This document shows, in pieces, positions 2,450-11,010 of a DNA stretch of 42,188 nt. Both the position numbers and the translations under genes were made by a program. How positions within the stretch are numbered: position 1 is the stretch's first letter; each line of letters begins with the position of its first letter. The notes beneath the pieces were generated by a model. The model saw only the letters and a list, made by a program, of their open reading frames with translations, was not told the DNA's origin and did no database searches. The DNA is from Bacteroidaceae bacterium (GTDB lineage Bacteria; Bacteroidota; Bacteroidia; Bacteroidales; Bacteroidaceae). The stretch lies in NCBI GenBank assembly GCA_017455585.1, contig JAFSZU010000004.1, positions 1 to 42,188 of the forward strand, read 5' to 3'.

Positions 2450-2609
2450 ACTACGGCCAAAGGTCGTGTCATTAAACGTTAAACATTAAACATTAAACTA
2501 CGGCCAAAGGTCGTGTCATTAAACGTTAAACATTAAACATTAAACTACGGCCAAAGTTCGTGTCATTAAACGTTAAACATTAAACATTAAACTACGGCCT
2601 CTGGCCGTG
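2429..2609. repeat. Four tandem TTAAAC/GC-hairpin units, right side of element T1
   Basis: Four units start at 2429 (40 bp), 2469, 2516 and 2563 (47 bp each). Each has TCATTAAACGTTAAAC, one or two ATTAAAC copies, and a hairpin ACGGCC-AAA-GGTCGT or a variant. The third hairpin is weakened (GTTCGT). The fourth is ACGGCC-TCT-GGCCGT, a perfect stem, and lies immediately before the pump start. The repeats are inverted relative to 2001-2045. The first unit encodes the C-terminus of the four-helix-bundle gene. Confidence 0.85.
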
Positions 2610-2615
2610 CAAAAA

Positions 2616-5600
2616 ATGAAAGGCAATATATTCATCAAACGGCCGGTGATGGCCATGTCCATCGCCATCGTCATCCTGCTCATCGGCGGCATCAGCTATT
2701 TCAGTCTGCCTGTGGAGCAGTTCCCTGACATTGCACCGCCAACGGTGATGGTCAGTGCCACCTACCCCGGTGCCTCGGCCGAAACTGTCACTAAGGCGGT
2801 CATCCAGCCGCTGGAAGAGAGCATCAACGGTGTGGAGAACATGACCTACATGACCTCCACAGCCACCAACTCAGGCTCCGCCAGCATCACCATCTACTTC
2901 AAGCAGGGCTCCAACCCCGACATGGCCGCCGTGAACGTGCAGAACCGCGTCAGCATGGCACAGGGTCTGCTGCCACAGGAGGTCACCATGATCGGTGTCA
3001 CCACCTTCAAGCGCCAGACATCCTTCCTCCAGATCAACGCCATGGTCAGCGAGAACCCCGACTATGACCAAGCATTCATGGGCAACTACATGAACATCAA
3101 CGTCACGCCGCAGCTCAAGCGCGTGCAGGGCGTGGGTGAGGTGTTTGCCCTGGCGGCCAACTACTCCCTGCGCGTCTGGCTGAAACCCGAGATCATGGCC
3201 CAGTACGGCCTGATACCCTCCAACATCAGTGCCTGTCTGGCCGAGCAGAACCTGGAAGCCGCCGTAGGCAAGTTCGGCGAGAAACCCATGGAAGGCGGAC
3301 ACGGTGACTACGTAGATAACGTCTATCAATATACCCTCCGCTACACCGGCCGACTCAAGGAGGTCAGCGAGTTCGAGAACATCGTCATCATGGCCAAGAG
3401 CGACGGCTCGCTGCTGCGCCTGAAGGACGTGGCCGACGTGGAGCTGGGACAGGTCGATTACGGCTACAAGGGCATGGTCAACGGCAAGCCCGCTGTCATC
3501 TTCATGGCCTTCCAGCTCGCCGGAGCCAACGCCAAGGAGACCAATGACCGCTTCTCTGCCGCGCTGGAAGAGATGCAGAAGACACTACCCAAGGGCTTGC
3601 GCTTCGAGAAGATGATGTCCAGCAACGACTTCCTGCTGGAATCCATCGCCAATGTGGAGGAGACACTCGTCATCGCCCTCATCCTCGTCATCCTCGTGGT
3701 CTATTTCTTCTTGCAGGACTTCCGGGCCACACTCATTCCATCCATCTCCATCATCATCTCGCTGGTCGGAACCTTCGCCGCGCTGGCTGCCGCGGGCTTC
3801 ACGCTCAATCTGCTGACGCTCTTCGCCTTGGTGCTGGCCATCGGTACGGTGGTGGATGATGCCATCGTGGTCGTGGAGGCCGTGCAGGCCAAGTTCGATG
3901 CCGGATACACCTCTTCTTATAAAGCCACCAAGGACGCCATGTCCGACGTGACCATGGCCGTCATCACCTGTACCCTCGTCTTCATGGCCGTGTTCATTCC
4001 TGTGGCTTTCATGCCAGGCACAAGTGGCATGTTCTACACCCAGTTCGGTGTCACCTTGGCCACCGCCGTGGGCATCTCCTGCGTCAGTGCCCTCGTAGTA
4101 TGCCCCGCCCTCTGCGCCATGCTCATGCGTCCCGCCAAGAAGAATCGTAAGGCCGAGAACGGCATCAACGCTTTCTTCATCGGCCTGAACAAGCGCACCC
4201 GTGCGGCTTACGAAGCCAGCTTCGGAGCCATCATGGGCAAATACACCCGCCGTCTGCGCAGCGTGGTCAACCACCGCTGGGTGGCTCCCGTCTCCTTCGT
4301 CATCGCCGCAGTGCTGCTCGTCTTTTTCATGAATGCCCTGCCCAAGGGCTTGGTGCCACAGGAAGACCAGGGTGTGATGATGGTCAACGTCACCTGTCCT
4401 CCTGGCAGCAACCTGGCCTACACAGAGAGCGTCCTGGACCGCGTGCAAGCCATCGTGGAGAAGGACGAGGACATCCAAACCTACTCACGTGTCAGCGGTT
4501 ACGGCATGATGTCCGGCCAGGGTGCCGCCAACGGTATGGTGATTCTGAAGATGAAGCACTGGAACGAGCGTTCCGGCAATCTCGTGCCTGGTTCTGGCTT
4601 CATCCACACCACAGGAATCAAGAAACTCATGCTGATGGGACAGATGATGAAGGAGATCCCCGAAGCACAAATCTTTGTCTTCGAGCCGGGTATGATTCCC
4701 GGATACGGCATGGGTTCCAACGTTGACCTGCACCTGCAGGATCGCAGCGACGGCGACAAGGGCCTCTTCCTCGAGCAGACACAGGAGTTCCTGGCAGCCC
4801 TCAACGCCCGCGAGGAAATCCAGATGGCGCAGACCTCCTACGCCCGCAACTTCCCGCAGTACCAGGTGGAAGTGGATGCGGCCCAGTGCAAGCTCGCTGG
4901 TCTCTCACCCTCCACGGTGCTCTCCACCATGAGCGGTTACCTCGGCGGCTCCTACGTCAGCAACTTCAACCAGTTCGGTAAGGTCTATCGCGTGATGATG
5001 CAGACCGATCCCAAGTACCGCACCAACGAGGCCGACCTCAGCAATATGTATGTGCGAGGCACTACAGGCATGGCACCACTCTCGCAGTTTGTCAAGCTCA
5101 CACCTGTCGTAGGCCCGGAAATCGACACCCACTTCAACCTCTTCTCCGAGATCTCCTGCATGGTGCAGCCCGCACAGGGCTTCACCACCACCGATGCCAT
5201 GAAGGCCATCGAGGAAGTGCGCCAGCAGACACTGCCCGACCACGTGACCTACGAGTACGGCAGCATCAGCCGTGAGGAATTCCAGCAGATGAACTCCAAC
5301 CAGACTATCCTCATCTACGCCATCTGCGTCATCCTCATCTTCCTCATCCTCAGCTGTCTCTATGAGAGCTTCCTCGTGCCATTCGCCGTCATCCTCTCCG
5401 TGCCCGCAGGCTTGATGGGAAGTTTCGGTTTCGCATGGCTCTGGAACCAACTCTACAGCGTTTTCCCGCCCGTGGGACAGATAGAGAACAACATCTACCT
5501 ACAGACGGGTGTCATCATGCTCATCGGCCTGCTCGCCAAGACTGCCATCCTGATTACCGAGTTTGCACTGGAACGTCGCCGCAAGGGCATGGGCATCGTC

Positions 5601-5918
5601 CAGGCCGCCTATGCTGCTGCCGAGGCACGTCTGCGTCCTATTCTGATGACTGTTCTCACCTGCGTGCTCGGCATGATGCCGCTGCTCTTCGCCACGGGTG
5701 CCGGTGCCAACGGTAACCGCACCATCGGTGCCGGTGTTGTCGGTGGTATGATTGTGGGAACCCTGGCCATCCTCTTCACCGTACCCGTCTTCTTCATCTT
5801 CTTCGAGTATCTACAGGAGAAAATCCGTCCCGCCATGAAGGTGGAGGCAGACCTGCAGTTCCTCAAGGAGCAGGAGCACAGCAAGAAGGAACGCGAAGAA
5901 GCAGAAGAAGAGCTATAA
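2616..5918 (+). CDS. RND multidrug efflux pump, inner-membrane (AcrB/MexB, HAE1 type)
   Basis: This proton-driven RND transporter has 1100 residues from ATG 2616 (GTG at 2607 overlaps the repeat hairpin and is less likely). TM1 begins after FIKRPVMA and leads to the family motif LPVEQFPDIAPPTV. The proton-relay residues are present: the VDDAIVVVE aspartates of TM4 (D414/D415) and the TM10 lysine in GLLAKTAILITEFA (K975). The two-fold repeat of TM bundles and large periplasmic porter loops fits the length. The C-terminus is a charged cytoplasmic tail (KKEREEAEEEL). It works with the adaptor at 877 and channel at 5972 to export compounds across both membranes. The 47-bp repeats directly upstream place an RNA hairpin about 8 bases before the start codon. 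Confidence 0.95.
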   Translation: MKGNIFIKRPVMAMSIAIVILLIGGISYFSLPVEQFPDIAPPTVMVSATYPGASAETVTKAVIQPLEESINGVENMTYMTSTATNSGSASITIYFKQGSNPDMAAVNVQNRVSMAQGLLPQEVTMIGVTTFKRQTSFLQINAMVSENPDYDQAFMGNYMNINVTPQLKRVQGVGEVFALAANYSLRVWLKPEIMAQYGLIPSNISACLAEQNLEAAVGKFGEKPMEGGHGDYVDNVYQYTLRYTGRLKEVSEFENIVIMAKSDGSLLRLKDVADVELGQVDYGYKGMVNGKPAVIFMAFQLAGANAKETNDRFSAALEEMQKTLPKGLRFEKMMSSNDFLLESIANVEETLVIALILVILVVYFFLQDFRATLIPSISIIISLVGTFAALAAAGFTLNLLTLFALVLAIGTVVDDAIVVVEAVQAKFDAGYTSSYKATKDAMSDVTMAVITCTLVFMAVFIPVAFMPGTSGMFYTQFGVTLATAVGISCVSALVVCPALCAMLMRPAKKNRKAENGINAFFIGLNKRTRAAYEASFGAIMGKYTRRLRSVVNHRWVAPVSFVIAAVLLVFFMNALPKGLVPQEDQGVMMVNVTCPPGSNLAYTESVLDRVQAIVEKDEDIQTYSRVSGYGMMSGQGAANGMVILKMKHWNERSGNLVPGSGFIHTTGIKKLMLMGQMMKEIPEAQIFVFEPGMIPGYGMGSNVDLHLQDRSDGDKGLFLEQTQEFLAALNAREEIQMAQTSYARNFPQYQVEVDAAQCKLAGLSPSTVLSTMSGYLGGSYVSNFNQFGKVYRVMMQTDPKYRTNEADLSNMYVRGTTGMAPLSQFVKLTPVVGPEIDTHFNLFSEISCMVQPAQGFTTTDAMKAIEEVRQQTLPDHVTYEYGSISREEFQQMNSNQTILIYAICVILIFLILSCLYESFLVPFAVILSVPAGLMGSFGFAWLWNQLYSVFPPVGQIENNIYLQTGVIMLIGLLAKTAILITEFALERRRKGMGIVQAAYAAAEARLRPILMTVLTCVLGMMPLLFATGAGANGNRTIGAGVVGGMIVGTLAILFTVPVFFIFFEYLQEKIRPAMKVEADLQFLKEQEHSKKEREEAEEEL

Positions 5919-5971: not shown

Positions 5972-7357
5972 ATGAAAAAGCAACTTTTTATAGTAGCAAT
6001 AGCAGCCGCCAGCCTCACCTCCTGCGGAGTAATGAAGTCCTACGAACGCCCCTCTGACCTACAGACCGACGGTCTCTACGGCACCACCGTTACAGTTCCT
6101 GAGGGTTCTCCCGAAGGCCTCGGTGCCAAGGCATGGCGCGAGTTCTTCACCGACCCCACCCTGCAACAGCTCATTGAGCGAGGTCTGGCACAGAACGTCT
6201 CTATGCGCCAGATAGACCTCCAGATACAGGAGGCCCAAGAGTACCTCAAGTGCTCCAAGCTCGCCTATATCCCCAGCCTGGCCATCGCACCGCAGGGACA
6301 GCTCTCCAGCCGCGACTGGGCCAGTCCACTGAAGTTCTACACCATACCACTCTCCGCCTCCTGGCAGATCGGTAGCTTCGGCACACTGCGCAATGCCAAG
6401 AAGAAAGCCGAGGTGGGCGTGGAGCAGACCAAGGTGGCACGCATGGCTGTGCAACAGAGCCTCGTGGCCAACATCGCCAACCTCTACTACACCCTCTGTA
6501 TGCTGGATGCTCAACTGGAGACCAGCGAGCAAACCGCTCAGAACTGGCGCGAGACCGTGGCCTATACCAAGAAACTGATGGATGCTGGACGCAGCAACCG
6601 CGCCGCCGTGGCACAGACCGAGGCCAACGCCCTTAACGTAGAAGCCACGCTGCTGGACCTGCGCGAGGGCATTGCCACCGCCGAGAACGCCCTCTGCACC
6701 ATCCTCGGCGAGGCACCCCACCACATCCAGCGCACCAGCCTCAACACCTTCACGGCACCGGCTATCGAGACCGGCATCCCCATGGCCCTGCTCCAAAACC
6801 GCCCGGACGTGAAACAGGCTGAACTCAAACTGGCCAGCACCTTCTATGATGTCAACAGTGCCAAGGCTGCCTTCTACCCGGCCCTCAACATCAGCGGCAC
6901 ACTGGGCTACACCAACAACGGTAGCACCATTGAGCTGAATCCCGCCATCTGGATATGGAACGCGCTGGCATCACTCACGCAGCCCATCTTTCAGAACGGA
7001 CGCCTCATCGCACAGAAGAAGGTGGCCAAGATGCAGCAGGAAGAAGCCAAGATGGCCTTCCAGCAGGCACTCATCGCCGCAGGTAATGAAGTCAACACCG
7101 CCCTTGTCTCACTACAGACGGCACAGGGCAAGCGCGACATCATCGCCCAGCAGATAGCCTCCCTCCAGACAGCCGTCGAGGCCACCGAGGCCCTCTATAA
7201 GGACAATGTCAGCCGGCAGGTCAACTATCTCAATGTCCTGACCGCACAGACGGGACTACTCTCTGCCCAGCTCGGCCAGATCAGCAACCAGTTCGCCATC
7301 ATCCAGGCCACCATAGACCTATATCAGGCCCTCGGCGGCGGCTCTATACAGTATTAG
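5972..7357 (+). CDS. RND efflux outer-membrane factor lipoprotein (TolC/OprM, NodT family)
   Basis: This is the trimeric outer-membrane channel of the tripartite pump: 461 residues, starting MKKQLFIVAIAAASLTSC with the lipidated cysteine at 18. The body is mostly long helices with the duplicated OMF pattern. RPDVKQAELKLAS with VNSAKAAFYPALNISGTLGY is the characteristic stretch of the second repeat. It ends in IDLYQALGGGS, a usual OMF ending. It is the last gene of the operon, 53 bases after the pump, and is followed by a terminator. Assignment is by family; the specific substrate is not visible. Confidence 0.94.
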   Translation: MKKQLFIVAIAAASLTSCGVMKSYERPSDLQTDGLYGTTVTVPEGSPEGLGAKAWREFFTDPTLQQLIERGLAQNVSMRQIDLQIQEAQEYLKCSKLAYIPSLAIAPQGQLSSRDWASPLKFYTIPLSASWQIGSFGTLRNAKKKAEVGVEQTKVARMAVQQSLVANIANLYYTLCMLDAQLETSEQTAQNWRETVAYTKKLMDAGRSNRAAVAQTEANALNVEATLLDLREGIATAENALCTILGEAPHHIQRTSLNTFTAPAIETGIPMALLQNRPDVKQAELKLASTFYDVNSAKAAFYPALNISGTLGYTNNGSTIELNPAIWIWNALASLTQPIFQNGRLIAQKKVAKMQQEEAKMAFQQALIAAGNEVNTALVSLQTAQGKRDIIAQQIASLQTAVEATEALYKDNVSRQVNYLNVLTAQTGLLSAQLGQISNQFAIIQATIDLYQALGGGSIQY

Positions 7358-7403
7358 TTTGGGAATGCTCTAAGACTTTTTCCGAGCATCTTTGCCTTCA
7401 TTT

Positions 7404-7438
7404 ACAGAGATACGGAATTCCGTATCTCTGTTTGTTTT
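7404..7438 (+). terminator. Terminator of the efflux operon
   Basis: ACAGAGATACGGAA and its exact inverse TTCCGTATCTCTGT form a perfect 28-base palindrome at 7404-7431, followed by TTGTTTT. It lies 47 bases after the outer-membrane factor stop codon. Confidence 0.75.
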
Positions 7439-7535
7439 GACCATTAAACACTTAAACAAATCTGATGCGTTCCTCTTTTATCGATTGTAACCATTTTGTA
7501 ACAGATAATTCAACACTTGTTCGCTGATTTTTGTG

Positions 7536-7543
7536 TAACTTTG
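7536..7543 (+). promoter_or_regulatory. -7 promoter element of the Na/Pi transporter-wHTH gene
   Basis: TAACTTTG is an exact TAnnTTTG match. It lies 30 bases before ATG 7573 and argues against any start upstream of 7550. No convincing -33 TTTG was found. Confidence 0.65.
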
Positions 7544-7572
7544 CTGCGAAAATCATAACAGTAAGGTCTATT

Positions 7573-9540
7573 ATGCTTACAATCTTATTCAAACTATTAG
7601 GCTCGCTGGCACTGCTCATCTACGGAATGAAAACGATGAGCGAGGCACTGCAGAAGATGGCGGGCCCGCAGTTGCGCCACGTCCTGGGTGCGATGACCAC
7701 CAACCGCTTCACAGGCATGTTGACGGGTGTGGGGGTGACGGCCGCCGTTCAGTCTTCAACAGCCACCACGGTGATGACGGTCTCGTTCGTCAACGCCGGT
7801 CTGCTGACACTGGCCCAGGCCATCAGCGTCATCATGGGTGCCAACATCGGCACAACACTGACGGCATGGATCATCTCGGCCGGTACATCGTTCAATATCA
7901 CCAACGCCGTCTTCCCCGCCTTCATCGTCGCCATGTTGCTCATCTACAAGAAGCGTCACCGCATTGTGGGCGACTTCATATTCGGCGTGGCCTTCCTGTT
8001 ATTAGGACTGGGCACGCTCCGCCAGACGGGTTCAGACATGCAACTGGGTCAGAACGAGACAGTGATGCAGTTTTTCTCTTCTTTCGACCCCAACGCGTTC
8101 TCCACGACACTCATCTTCCTGCTGTTAGGTGGCCTACTGACCATGTGCGTGCAGTCGTCTGCTGCCATCATGGCCATCACCATGATGCTCTGCTCCAGCG
8201 GCGTGATGCCCATATACCAGGGCATTGCTCTGGTCATGGGCGAGAATATCGGCACCACTGTCACCTCGAACCTCGCTGCGATGACAGCCTCCACCGAGGC
8301 ACGCCGCGCGGCCTTTGCCCACATGTTCTTCAACCTCTTCGGCGTGGCGTGGATGATTGTCGTCCTGCATCCGTTCGTCGATCTCATTTGCAGCATCGTG
8401 GGAACAGACATGAGTTTTGTCCTCGCCGCATTTCACACAGGTTTCAATGTCATCAATACGGGCATCCTCATCTGGTTCATCCCACAGATTGAACGCTTCG
8501 TGTGCTTTGTCATCCAGCCCCGCAAAACGGCAGCAACAGGAAGCGGCCACCTTCGTTTCATCGAAGGCGGCTTGATGGCCACGCCTGAAATCTCAGTCCT
8601 GCAAGCACAAAAGGAAATCACGCTGATGGCCGAGCGAATGCAGCAGATGTTCGGTCTGGTGCGCACACTCCTTGACGAGCGTGACCGCAAGGAACAAGAG
8701 CGACTCCATGAGCGTATAGACAAATACGAGGAGTTATCCGACAGCATGGAGATTGACATTGCCAACTACCTGGACCGCGTCAGCCGCGACCACCTCTCTG
8801 ATGACACAAAGGGCAAAATCCGTTCCATGCTGCGACAGATCAGCGAACTGGAGAGCATTGGCGATGCCTGCTCCAGCATTGCACGTTCCATCCGCCGCAC
8901 CCGCGAGAGCCGCGAGGATTTTACTGCCGAACAGTATGGACACCTGCATGAGATGCTAAGGTTGACCAGCGAGAGCATCGTGCAGATGATGGTGGTGGTC
9001 AGCGGGCGTCGTGATAATCTCTCGCTGGACCTCTCCAAAGAGATTGAGAGCGACATCAACACCTTGCGTGACCGACTGAAGACGCAGAATATTCAGGATG
9101 TGAACGCCCACCTTTACTCATACGCCATCGGCACATACTATATTGACATCGTGTCCGCCTGCGAGAAACTGGGTGACTATGTGATAAACGTCGTGGAAGC
9201 TCGTCTCGGCCGTCCCGCCCTCCGCTTCAAGGGGTTGGTTGTCAACACAGAGCAGAAAACGGTCAGTATCGACGGTACGGAAGTATCGCTCACCCGCATA
9301 GAGTTCATGTTGCTGAGGTTGCTGCTGGCACATCGTGGCGAAGTCTTTTCCCGTCAACAACTCATGGAACGCGTGTGGCACGATGTCGTTGTGTCAGACC
9401 GCACCGTTGATGTCTCCATGACCCGCTTGCGCAAGAAACTCGGTCCCTATGCCCCACACATCGCCAACCGCCCCGGCTTTGGTTATTATTTCTTGGAAGA
9501 CAAAGCGGTTGCCCCGACGAATCCACCCGTGAATTTATAG
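7573..9540 (+). CDS. Na+/phosphate cotransporter with PhoU-like domain fused to an OmpR-type winged helix
   Basis: Residues 1-320 are the NptA/PNaS transporter: two inverted repeats each with a QSS motif (AAVQSSTATT at 57-66 and MCVQSSAAIMAIT), plus GANIGTTLT and GENIGTTVT. About 340-550 is a charged helical PhoU-like region with ELESIGDAC and ACEKLGDYV (ExxxD metal motifs). About 555-640 is an OmpR/PhoB-type trans_reg_C winged helix: SLTRIEFMLLRLLL, SRQQLMERVW, a recognition helix with DRTVDVSMTRLRKKLG, and a wing RPGFGYYFLE. Usual NptA-PhoU proteins of Bacteroidetes stop before the winged helix. The reading frame is continuous, so it would be a membrane-tethered DNA-binding phosphate transporter (655 aa). 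ATG 7573 follows a -7 element at 7536, so an upstream TTG is excluded. Domain calls are from motifs; the regulatory role is inferred. Confidence 0.9.
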   Translation: MLTILFKLLGSLALLIYGMKTMSEALQKMAGPQLRHVLGAMTTNRFTGMLTGVGVTAAVQSSTATTVMTVSFVNAGLLTLAQAISVIMGANIGTTLTAWIISAGTSFNITNAVFPAFIVAMLLIYKKRHRIVGDFIFGVAFLLLGLGTLRQTGSDMQLGQNETVMQFFSSFDPNAFSTTLIFLLLGGLLTMCVQSSAAIMAITMMLCSSGVMPIYQGIALVMGENIGTTVTSNLAAMTASTEARRAAFAHMFFNLFGVAWMIVVLHPFVDLICSIVGTDMSFVLAAFHTGFNVINTGILIWFIPQIERFVCFVIQPRKTAATGSGHLRFIEGGLMATPEISVLQAQKEITLMAERMQQMFGLVRTLLDERDRKEQERLHERIDKYEELSDSMEIDIANYLDRVSRDHLSDDTKGKIRSMLRQISELESIGDACSSIARSIRRTRESREDFTAEQYGHLHEMLRLTSESIVQMMVVVSGRRDNLSLDLSKEIESDINTLRDRLKTQNIQDVNAHLYSYAIGTYYIDIVSACEKLGDYVINVVEARLGRPALRFKGLVVNTEQKTVSIDGTEVSLTRIEFMLLRLLLAHRGEVFSRQQLMERVWHDVVVSDRTVDVSMTRLRKKLGPYAPHIANRPGFGYYFLEDKAVAPTNPPVNL

Positions 9541-9582
9541 GCATATTGACAGAACCATATCCTCTCATAAGCCACGGCAATA

Positions 9583-11010
9583 TCAACCGAAGAGCGCACG
9601 GAAAGCATCTTCCACGCGACGGCAGGGGGTAATTTCAATAGAGTAATGATGGGGATTGACAGCCTTGAGGTTGGCAGCGGGGATGATGATGCGACGGAAG
9701 CCCAACTTCTGTGCTTCGGCAATGCGCTGCTCAATGCGGCTGACGGGACGTATCTCACCCGAGAGCCCCACCTCGCCGCACAATGCTGTATCATGCTCGA
9801 TGGCTGTATCGACGTTGGAACTGAGGATGGCAGCGATGACGGCCAAGTCAATGGCGGGGTCGGTAACGCGCAGACCTCCGGCAATGTTAAGGAACACGTC
9901 TTTCTGCGCCAACTTGAAGCCCACACGCTTCTCCAACACCGCCAGCAACATGTTCAGACGACGATAGTCGAAGCCATTGGCCGAACGTTGAGCTGTACCG
10001 TAGGCGGCAGTGCTGACAAGAGCCTGTGTCTCTATAAGGAATGGTCGCACGCCTTCGATGGCCGCAGCGATGGCGATGCCGCTGAGGCCGTCCTGATTGT
10101 CGGTCAGCAAGAGTTCCGACGGGTTGGCGACAGGACGCAGTCCGTCGCTGCGCATCTCATAGATGCCGAGTTCGGCCGTGGAACCGAAACGGTTCTTCTG
10201 TGACCGCAGGATACGGTAGAGATAATGTTGATCGCCCTCGAATTGCAGAACAGTATCCACAATGTGCTCCAGCACCTTGGGACCGGCGATGGTGCCTTCC
10301 TTGTTGATGTGCCCGATGAGGATGATGCTGGGGCCACCGCTCTTGGCATACTTCAACAACGCTGCTGCACACTCTCGGATCTGGCTGAGGCTACCAGGCG
10401 AACTCTCCACTGCCTCAGTGCTGACGGTCTGGATAGAGTCGATGATGACAAGGTCTGGTTGTTCGGTCTCTATGTGCTGGAATATATTCTCGAGGGAAGT
10501 ATCACACACCACCATCAAATCCGATGGCCCTTCTGTCTCTTCTATCTTTTCTTTTCTCTCTACTCTCTTATCCCGGCTCTCCAATCTTTCTGCCCTCATC
10601 TTCAATTGGCGCGCACTTTCTTCACCGCTGACATAGAGCACTTTCTTGTCCGCCAGACGCAGGACAGTCTGCAGGACAAGAGTAGATTTGCCGATACCGG
10701 GTTCACCGCCCAAGAGGACAAGACTGCCGGGAACGAGGCCGCCACCCAGGACGCGGTTCAGTTCCTCGTCATGAAGATCCATGCGCGGCTCTGCATCGGC
10801 CTTGATTTCAGAGAGAGGAATGGGCCGGGACGACGTTGAGCGTTTAGCATTGAGGGTTGAGGGTATGCCTTTCCCGCTCTGGGCCGTTGAGCCACTCACC
10901 CGGAACTCCTTGAACGTATTCCACTGTCCGCAACTGGGGCACTTGCCCATCCACTTGGTGCTCTCCTGTCCGCAATTGTCGCAGACAAACATCACTTTGT
11001 CTTTTGCCAT
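9583..11010 (-). CDS. radA: DNA repair protein RadA/Sms
   Basis: RadA is a hexameric DnaB-like helicase that promotes branch migration during recombination. The 475-residue protein has the N-terminal zinc finger (C10, C13, C24, C27 in CDNC..CPSC), Walker A GGEPGIGKST (101-110), the RadA signature KNRFG (272-276) and a C-terminal Lon-like domain. Two linkers are unusual. After the zinc finger there is a low-complexity stretch (about 39-66). Residues 143-164 (RLESRDKRVERKEKIEETEG) are an extra charged insert encoded by purine-rich, repeat-like DNA at about 10515-10585. It is convergent with the transporter gene, 42 bases apart, with no clear terminator. A TAATTTCG sequence upstream on the minus strand may be a weak -7 element. 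Confidence 0.95.
   Translation of the reverse strand: MAKDKVMFVCDNCGQESTKWMGKCPSCGQWNTFKEFRVSGSTAQSGKGIPSTLNAKRSTSSRPIPLSEIKADAEPRMDLHDEELNRVLGGGLVPGSLVLLGGEPGIGKSTLVLQTVLRLADKKVLYVSGEESARQLKMRAERLESRDKRVERKEKIEETEGPSDLMVVCDTSLENIFQHIETEQPDLVIIDSIQTVSTEAVESSPGSLSQIRECAAALLKYAKSGGPSIILIGHINKEGTIAGPKVLEHIVDTVLQFEGDQHYLYRILRSQKNRFGSTAELGIYEMRSDGLRPVANPSELLLTDNQDGLSGIAIAAAIEGVRPFLIETQALVSTAAYGTAQRSANGFDYRRLNMLLAVLEKRVGFKLAQKDVFLNIAGGLRVTDPAIDLAVIAAILSSNVDTAIEHDTALCGEVGLSGEIRPVSRIEQRIAEAQKLGFRRIIIPAANLKAVNPHHYSIEITPCRRVEDAFRALFG

Follow-up and report, generated by a model that had tools for sequence, protein, structure and literature searches.

A Na/Pi cotransporter fused to a PhoB-type winged helix: a candidate autoregulated phosphate transporter

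Can a transporter act on DNA from within the membrane, and if so, at which promoter? The question is raised by one gene in the window (the whole stretch of 42,188 nucleotides analysed here, from a Bacteroidaceae assembly), which a preliminary description read as an NptA-type Na/Pi transporter, a PhoU-like helical region, and an OmpR-type winged helix joined in a single uninterrupted frame. The answer matters for two wider problems, namely by what means a polytopic transporter could act on DNA at the membrane and by what route operons become fusion proteins. To the original observation we add a Pho-box-like repeat upstream of the gene, the PhoB-specific character of the winged helix, and the occurrence of the same parts as adjacent genes in relatives.

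Domains and setting of the fused protein

The frame is indeed unbroken, running for 655 aa on the forward strand to a TAG stop codon, and all three domains score over their Pfam cut-offs: Na_Pi_cotrans (PF02690) with 188.5 bits in two stretches, PhoU (PF01895) in a single stretch at residues 349–439 (31.7 bits against a cut-off of 23.5), and Trans_reg_C (PF00486) with 75.3 bits against a cut-off of 26.2. The NCBIfam model for Na/Pi cotransporters, TIGR00704, was also matched over its cut-off (217.9 bits versus 210.1). The combination of PF02690, PF01895, and TIGR00704 is what we take to define an NptA-type Na/Pi cotransporter with a C-terminal PhoU domain, the YjbB type; as a member of this cotransporter family, the protein presumably carries out sodium-driven phosphate transport. 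The two QSS repeats attributed to the NptA-type part are both present (Table 1), and the OmpR-type winged helix is as complete as had been claimed, with all 77 positions of the PF00486 profile matched (1–77 of 77) and the recognition helix DRTVDVSMTRLRKKLG in place. Pfam gave no Response_reg match in the fused protein.

Many hydrophobic segments lie within residues 1–315, and none over threshold was found from residue 331 to the C-terminal end. As only a few residues separate the last PhoU helix from the winged helix, the latter should lie on PhoU's side of the membrane, which in the Na/Pi cotransporter family is the cytoplasm. The gene is preceded by genes for an RND pump (2607–5918) and an outer membrane efflux protein (5972–7357) and followed on the opposite strand by a RadA-like gene (9583–11010), so named from its domains. 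A terminator-like repeat separates the efflux genes from the fused gene, which therefore probably has its own promoter and stands alone in its transcript. No known RNA (Rfam) was found in 7300–9700.

Table 1. Positions in the window of the fused gene, its domains, and its upstream elements.
Feature	Position	Strand	Basis
Terminator-like hairpin (perfect inverted repeat) with T-rich tail, between efflux genes and fused gene	7404–7431	+	
Pho-box-like putative operator TTGTAAC-N4-TTGTAAC, two identical 7-mers, 11-bp period	7485–7502	+	Repeat search, conservation
TAACTTTG, TAnnTTTG-type promoter −7 element, 51 bp after box start	7536–7543	+	Spacing analysis
Fused gene, Na/Pi cotransporter, PhoU-like region, PhoB-type winged helix, 655 aa	7573–9540	+	ORF, Pfam, NCBIfam, full-length relatives
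Na_Pi_cotrans repeat 1; QSS at residue 60, GANIGTT at 89	7612–8022	+	Pfam, motif scan
Na_Pi_cotrans repeat 2; QSS at residue 194, GENIGTT at 223	8095–8343	+	Motif scan
PhoU-like helical region, residues about 331–547	8563–9213	+	Pfam PhoU at 349–439; outer borders estimated
PhoB-type winged helix, Trans_reg_C, residues 568–640	9274–9492	+	Pfam, alignment
Recognition helix DRTVDVSMTRLRKKLG	9397–9444	+	Translation; family profile aligned with E. coli PhoB (1gxp)

Among the NCBIfam regulator models, the winged helix was matched best by Bacteroidota PhoB (NF053854, 108.6 bits) and next by PhoB TIGR02154 (64.7 bits). The score falls far under the whole-protein cut-off of NF053854 (270 bits) because the receiver is absent from the fused protein, which matched only profile positions 132–224. 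The best solved-structure match to a profile of the fused winged helices was the DNA-binding domain of E. coli PhoB (1qqi/1gxp, 76 bits); judged by this match and by the 100-row tree described below, the winged helix is of PhoB descent. W64, RKK at 82–84, G97, G99, and Y100 are invariant in all 15 aligned fused copies. In the recognition helix, 10 of these 15 have NITRxRKK, the window has SMTRLRKK, and some fused copies have DHT or DST in place of DRT; the fused version resembles the NITRMRKK of a PhoB in an unfused relative (L066), a complete protein with receiver and winged helix by Pfam. PhoU and winged helix are joined by only a few residues; clade B has two more of them than clade A (both defined below), and the length is otherwise constant. 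Across 12 pairs, dN/dS by a simple counting method was 0.02–0.17 for the winged helix, 0.02–0.29 for the membrane part, and 0.03–0.22 for the PhoU part, with several of the dS values saturated; the low ratios point to purifying selection, and thus to a winged helix that is maintained rather than decaying.

Distribution and origin of the fusion

Relatives do not always stop before the winged helix, an outcome that the preliminary description had set against its own reading; a large set of them carries the fusion. A whole-protein search gave some match in all 201 of 201 family genomes; among the matches listed, the majority stop close to residue 547 and fewer extend into the winged helix, and full-length relatives at 57–68% identity finish in the same winged helix. 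With a profile of the junction and winged helix run over 399 family genomes, the fusion or a remnant was found in at least 39, of which 38 are set apart at E-values of 1.6e-46 or better and one holds a diverged copy in a 659-aa frame (G230); fused copies occur under six genus codes. Thirty-six of these carriers, at least 39 in number, hold the fusion in frames of 637 aa or more, and the partial copies are one of 288 aa (G063), one with a broken frame (G375), and one near a contig start (G152).

In a separate named collection, from which the best 80 of 528 relatives were kept, 70 of these best 80 loci have full-length fused frames above 600 aa (71 were scored as full-length, but L259 among them is really 208 aa with an internal deletion); the remaining loci are three that run off a contig end, three with a partial transporter, and three ordinary response regulators. 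The carriers among these best 80 are mostly rumen and gut assemblies of Prevotellaceae or Bacteroidales. Genomes entered in public records as Prevotella isolates also carry the fusion, which was found in five whose titles read as strains: Prevotella ruminicola KHT3, P. aff. ruminicola Tc2-24, Prevotella sp. khp7, and Prevotellaceae bacteria MN60 and HUN156. A sequencing or assembly artefact as the source of the fusion is ruled out by these many independent genomes, strains included.

Three contigs labelled Salinivirgaceae (L201, L202, and L204, from yak stomach and Tb.RUG assemblies) also hold the fused gene, which in L204 extends past the contig end; either wider spread or misnaming could account for them. 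Short forms occur as well: the PhoU half with the winged helix in 288 aa (L117, the same as L256; 2657–3523), the first membrane part with the winged helix in the 208 aa of L259 (2029–2652), and a 180-aa remnant (L216, 2773–3312), which are possibly products of decay, assembly faults, or soluble regulators. Outside the family our thresholds were strict, given that the diverged copy in G230 scored just 1.4e-36 within the family search, and more distant fusions may have been missed. At E ≤ 1e-37, an order-level search of 295 genomes with the winged-helix profile returned only the window and an ordinary 243-aa frame (G465); at E ≤ 1e-40, a phylum-level search of 395 genomes with a profile of PhoU and winged helix matched both parts in the window only, and the PhoU part alone in three genomes. 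A transporter–PhoU–winged helix fusion is named in no title or abstract opening among the best-listed open-licence literature matches.

In unfused relatives, at loci chosen for PhoB near a transporter, genes for a transporter with PhoU, a complete PhoB, and a short histidine kinase are consecutive in 21 cases; the kinases are mostly 304–322 aa, and L150 has transporter and PhoB with the kinase absent. These kinases have a short N-terminal part ahead of the histidine box (e.g., L066, 5732–6652) and may sense through the transporter. We built a winged-helix tree of 100 rows (39 fused, 60 PhoB, and 1 outgroup) and 98 columns, and a transporter tree of 71 rows, having excluded ten repeat loci and transporter matches under 600 bits from both and L126, with its broken frame, from the latter. 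In the winged-helix tree, clade A (19 fused rows, the window included) is nested by starred branches among operon-type and a few stand-alone PhoBs, the branch to its nearest sister not being starred. Clade B, with 20 fused rows from genus code g24, is placed apart from clade A, next to two stand-alone PhoBs (97/70, not starred). The two clades are joined in no bootstrap tree of the winged helix. The transporter tree places the fused copies in three groups; in AU tests on a quick tree of 70 of the 71 rows, with the long-branched L070 left out, it rejects one fused group (p = 0.0022) as well as a tree that merges both clade A groups (p = 0.0040). We have therefore set aside a single origin of all fusions on the strength of the transporter tree, although the winged-helix tree alone, with its 98 columns, does not reject one (AU p = 0.346).

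These rejections, together with the separate places of clades A and B, make at least two fusion events likely. Three events, or a single one with later swapping of transporter segments, may also account for the pattern; several origins could be mimicked by recombination among transporter paralogues. Two loci (L019 and L154) hold a tandem pair of Na/Pi transporters, a possible source of such exchange.

Fused genomes differ from the family at large in their content of PhoB, which scored over the cut-off in 120 of 201 family genomes overall versus 3 of 39 fused genomes. Of those three, G346 and G285 have full-length matches, and G122 has a PhoB with a shortened receiver. The latter (G122:C6, L064, 2374–4311) is accompanied by a kinase apparently split in two frames, in a genome that also holds the fused gene, and looks like a case of PhoRB decay. 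By counts transcribed by hand from search listings, a crude contrast among the 201 genomes has PhoB in 1 of 18 fused genomes and in 119 of the 183 others (Fisher p = 8e-7). Restricted to fusion-bearing genera, the figures become 1 of 18 for fused and 11 of 32 for unfused genomes, a difference that is not significant (stratified chi-square 1.26). Loss of PhoB is thus frequent in this part of the family and does not merely accompany the fusion; we dropped a strict replacement of PhoB by the fusion on the same ground. Many genomes have neither, since the 81 of the 201 without PhoB over the cut-off far exceed the 18 that are fused.

The full N-terminus of the operon-type kinase, sought with a profile of that kinase type only, was found in none of the 39 fused genomes and in all 4 operon controls; nine fused genomes gave weak partial matches (28–33 bits) to the end of the profile, and four controls with a stand-alone PhoB likewise gave only partial matches there. 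With ABC candidates partly scored, just 7 of the 39 fused genomes gave a match over 300 bits to a PstB-like ATPase, so that sodium-driven uptake may be the main phosphate route in these organisms. None over 300 bits was found in the window's genome (an 80% complete assembly), which retains one ordinary OmpR-type response regulator.

An operator-like repeat ahead of the promoter

The repeat upstream of the window gene consists of two 7-mers at an 11-bp period, which is the geometry of the E. coli Pho box, and is followed by a TAnnTTTG sequence, presumably the promoter −7 element of Bacteroidota (Table 1). A possible TTG start at 7531 was rejected, as it precedes this promoter element. We scored the box at 14 fixed positions within 200 bp upstream, on both strands, with 1360 dinucleotide shuffles as the control; because the window gene supplied the pattern, that gene's own score is not evidence. 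Scores of at least 11/14 were reached by 32 of 34 fused genes (the others being L127 with 8 and L138 with 10), 21 of 22 operons, 8 of 12 solo transporters, and 4.1% of the 1360 shuffles, and scores of at least 12/14 by 18 of 34, 19 of 22, 4 of 12, and 0.15%, respectively. Of the 69 fused genes scored in the named collection, 65 reached at least 11/14, as did 52 of the 56 on contigs not recognised from the earlier set, and 62 of the 69 have TAnnTTTG at the right distance from the box.

Measured from the start of the box, that distance is 50–51 bp in every one of the 17 clade A fused genes tested; 18 of 22 operons show the same spacing, and one more has 61 bp (two of the operons are near-identical). 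In clade B it is 54 bp in 14 of 17 genes and 57 bp in one, with no such element found in the other two; the clade B repeat scores mostly 11–12/14, and its orientation is opposite to that in clade A. At L013, L014, L015, L018, L118, and other clade B loci, the reversed repeat stands about 83 bp before the start. Two of the solo transporters, with PhoB elsewhere in the genome (L012 and L021), have the box at 51-bp spacing, and the unfused paralogue in the window's genome (L080) is without it (score 9). Since the box is not specific to fused genes, another OmpR-type regulator may read it.

Genome-wide scans were limited to exact or one-mismatch patterns and would miss degenerate sites. On this basis, TGTAAC-N5-TGTAAC occurs exactly once in the window's genome (80% complete), at the fused gene, and allowing one mismatch gives 4 matches versus 6 in a backward control. 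A looser pattern, with a pyrimidine allowed at one place, has 0–2 exact copies in each of 19 clade A fused genomes, 16 in total; 10 of these are the fused gene's own, and the other 6 are fewer than the 12 control matches, so a large regulon is not indicated. In 19 operon genomes, the same pattern has 34 copies versus 36 in the control (hand count). One genome (G010), which also has an operon (L070, G010:C5), carries, next to a further transporter gene, a pair of exact boxes that face opposite ways and lie 26 bp apart (G010:C18:79504–79546).

Proposed mechanism, alternatives, and known systems

We think it likely that the fused protein is an autoregulated phosphate transporter, which would import phosphate with sodium, sense it through the PhoU-like domain, and act on DNA through the PhoB-derived winged helix. 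Transport, phosphate sensing, the PhoU gate, DNA binding, and activation rather than repression are the elements that we infer, and a relay to DNA of a transport state read by the PhoU-like domain is a reasonable supposition. The putative contact of the winged helix with DNA is well supported, if indirectly, by its PhoB descent, purifying selection, and the conserved operator-like repeat with its fixed spacing to the promoter element. The protein would sense either its own working state or cytoplasmic phosphate, and its main target would be its own promoter, via the repeat just upstream of the core promoter. Under scarce phosphate, the PhoU-like domain would free or position two winged helices, supplied by a dimer or by adjacent transporters, on the pair of 7-mer half-sites, and the transporter gene would be transcribed more strongly; while phosphate is flowing, PhoU would keep the winged helix away. 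Receiver-free PhoB DNA-binding domains act constitutively, so some restraint on the winged helix is needed, for which the PhoU-like domain with its short junction is a natural candidate. The geometry of the site asks for two winged helices side by side, and at least two chains would therefore have to meet at the promoter. Activation is favoured because the box lies upstream of the promoter, a placement shared with the PhoB operons. In evolutionary terms, a module of transporter, PhoB, and PhoR would have collapsed, with the receiver and kinase lost and the DNA-binding domain joined to the PhoU end of the transporter. That a single polypeptide would serve as transporter, sensor, and transcription factor of its own gene, through two or three independent collapses of the module within one bacterial family and with phosphate homeostasis free of any phosphorelay, we regard as probable on balance. 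Weighing against the autoregulated reading are the mostly weaker, reversed repeat of clade B, the genomes that lack both PhoB and fusion, the three in which both occur, and the chance that a second regulator reads the box.

The winged helix might instead block its own promoter, high phosphate or a high level of the transporter shutting the gene off. Autoregulation is compatible with either sign, and the reversed box of clade B may mean a different contact with RNA polymerase; but the spacing from box to TAnnTTTG in clade A (17/17) and in the operons (18/22) puts the box outside the core promoter, in an activator-like place, and such an autorepressor seems to us unlikely. Slightly less likely still is cleavage, in which a protease would release a soluble regulator made of the winged helix alone or of the winged helix together with the PhoU part. 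The few genomes that have the winged helix with little or no transporter (L117, L259, and L216) would fit such an arrangement, but these short forms may be decay or assembly faults, and a junction of few residues and near-constant length leaves little room for a cleavage site.

It is also conceivable, although we rate it as improbable, that the box serves another OmpR-type regulator, with the fused winged helix acting at other targets or in a structural capacity, as the same box stands before PhoB-adjacent unfused transporters and some solo transporters and the window's genome keeps its one ordinary response regulator. Against this, 36 of 39 fused genomes are without PhoB over the cut-off and yet the box reaches 11/14 or better in 32 of the 34 fused genes scored, and the fused recognition helix is like that of the operon PhoB. 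A winged helix that is merely left over, its DNA binding lost, could account for the recognition-helix variation of some copies (DHT or DST) and for the few loci that appear broken (L126, L216, and L259). The low dN/dS in 12 of 12 pairs, the residues invariant in 15 of 15 copies, and the retention of all three parts together in both large fused clades make such a relic very improbable.

The route by which a phosphate transporter conveys its state to PhoB via PhoU has long been debated, in systems where the signal crosses several membrane proteins. With the path reduced to one chain and a very short junction, PhoU signalling could be examined in isolation from any kinase or phosphorylation step; if the autoregulated reading is true, the fused protein is, to our knowledge, the shortest known path from a transporter to its own promoter. 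CbrA-type proteins, in which a transporter is fused to a histidine kinase, likewise join a transporter module to a signalling module, but their output is a kinase that needs a response regulator, whereas the output here would be the DNA-binding domain itself. NptA/YjbB-type cotransporters share both transporter repeats, the QSS motifs, and the PhoU-like region with the fused protein, but ordinary members stop after PhoU, where the fused protein continues into a PhoB-type winged helix. In PMC13170248, NptA and its PhoU domain are counted among bacterial phosphate transport proteins, and PhoU-domain proteins that also carry Na_Pi_cotransporter domains are omitted from the PhoU tree. With Bacteroidota PhoB (NF053854) and the PhoRB of Bacteroides fragilis (PMC3547664), the DNA-binding domain is shared and the operator probably so; unlike PhoB, the fused protein is without receiver or phosphorylation site and is joined to a transporter. 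ToxR and CadC, as described in PMC5936718, carry the winged helix at the N-terminus and have a single membrane helix with a periplasmic sensor, and the lysine signal of CadC comes from a separate permease, LysP. Like them, the fused protein has a membrane-anchored OmpR-type winged helix and no phosphorelay; unlike them, and in agreement with the difference that the preliminary description had drawn, its winged helix is C-terminal, behind a polytopic transporter with many hydrophobic segments and a PhoU domain.
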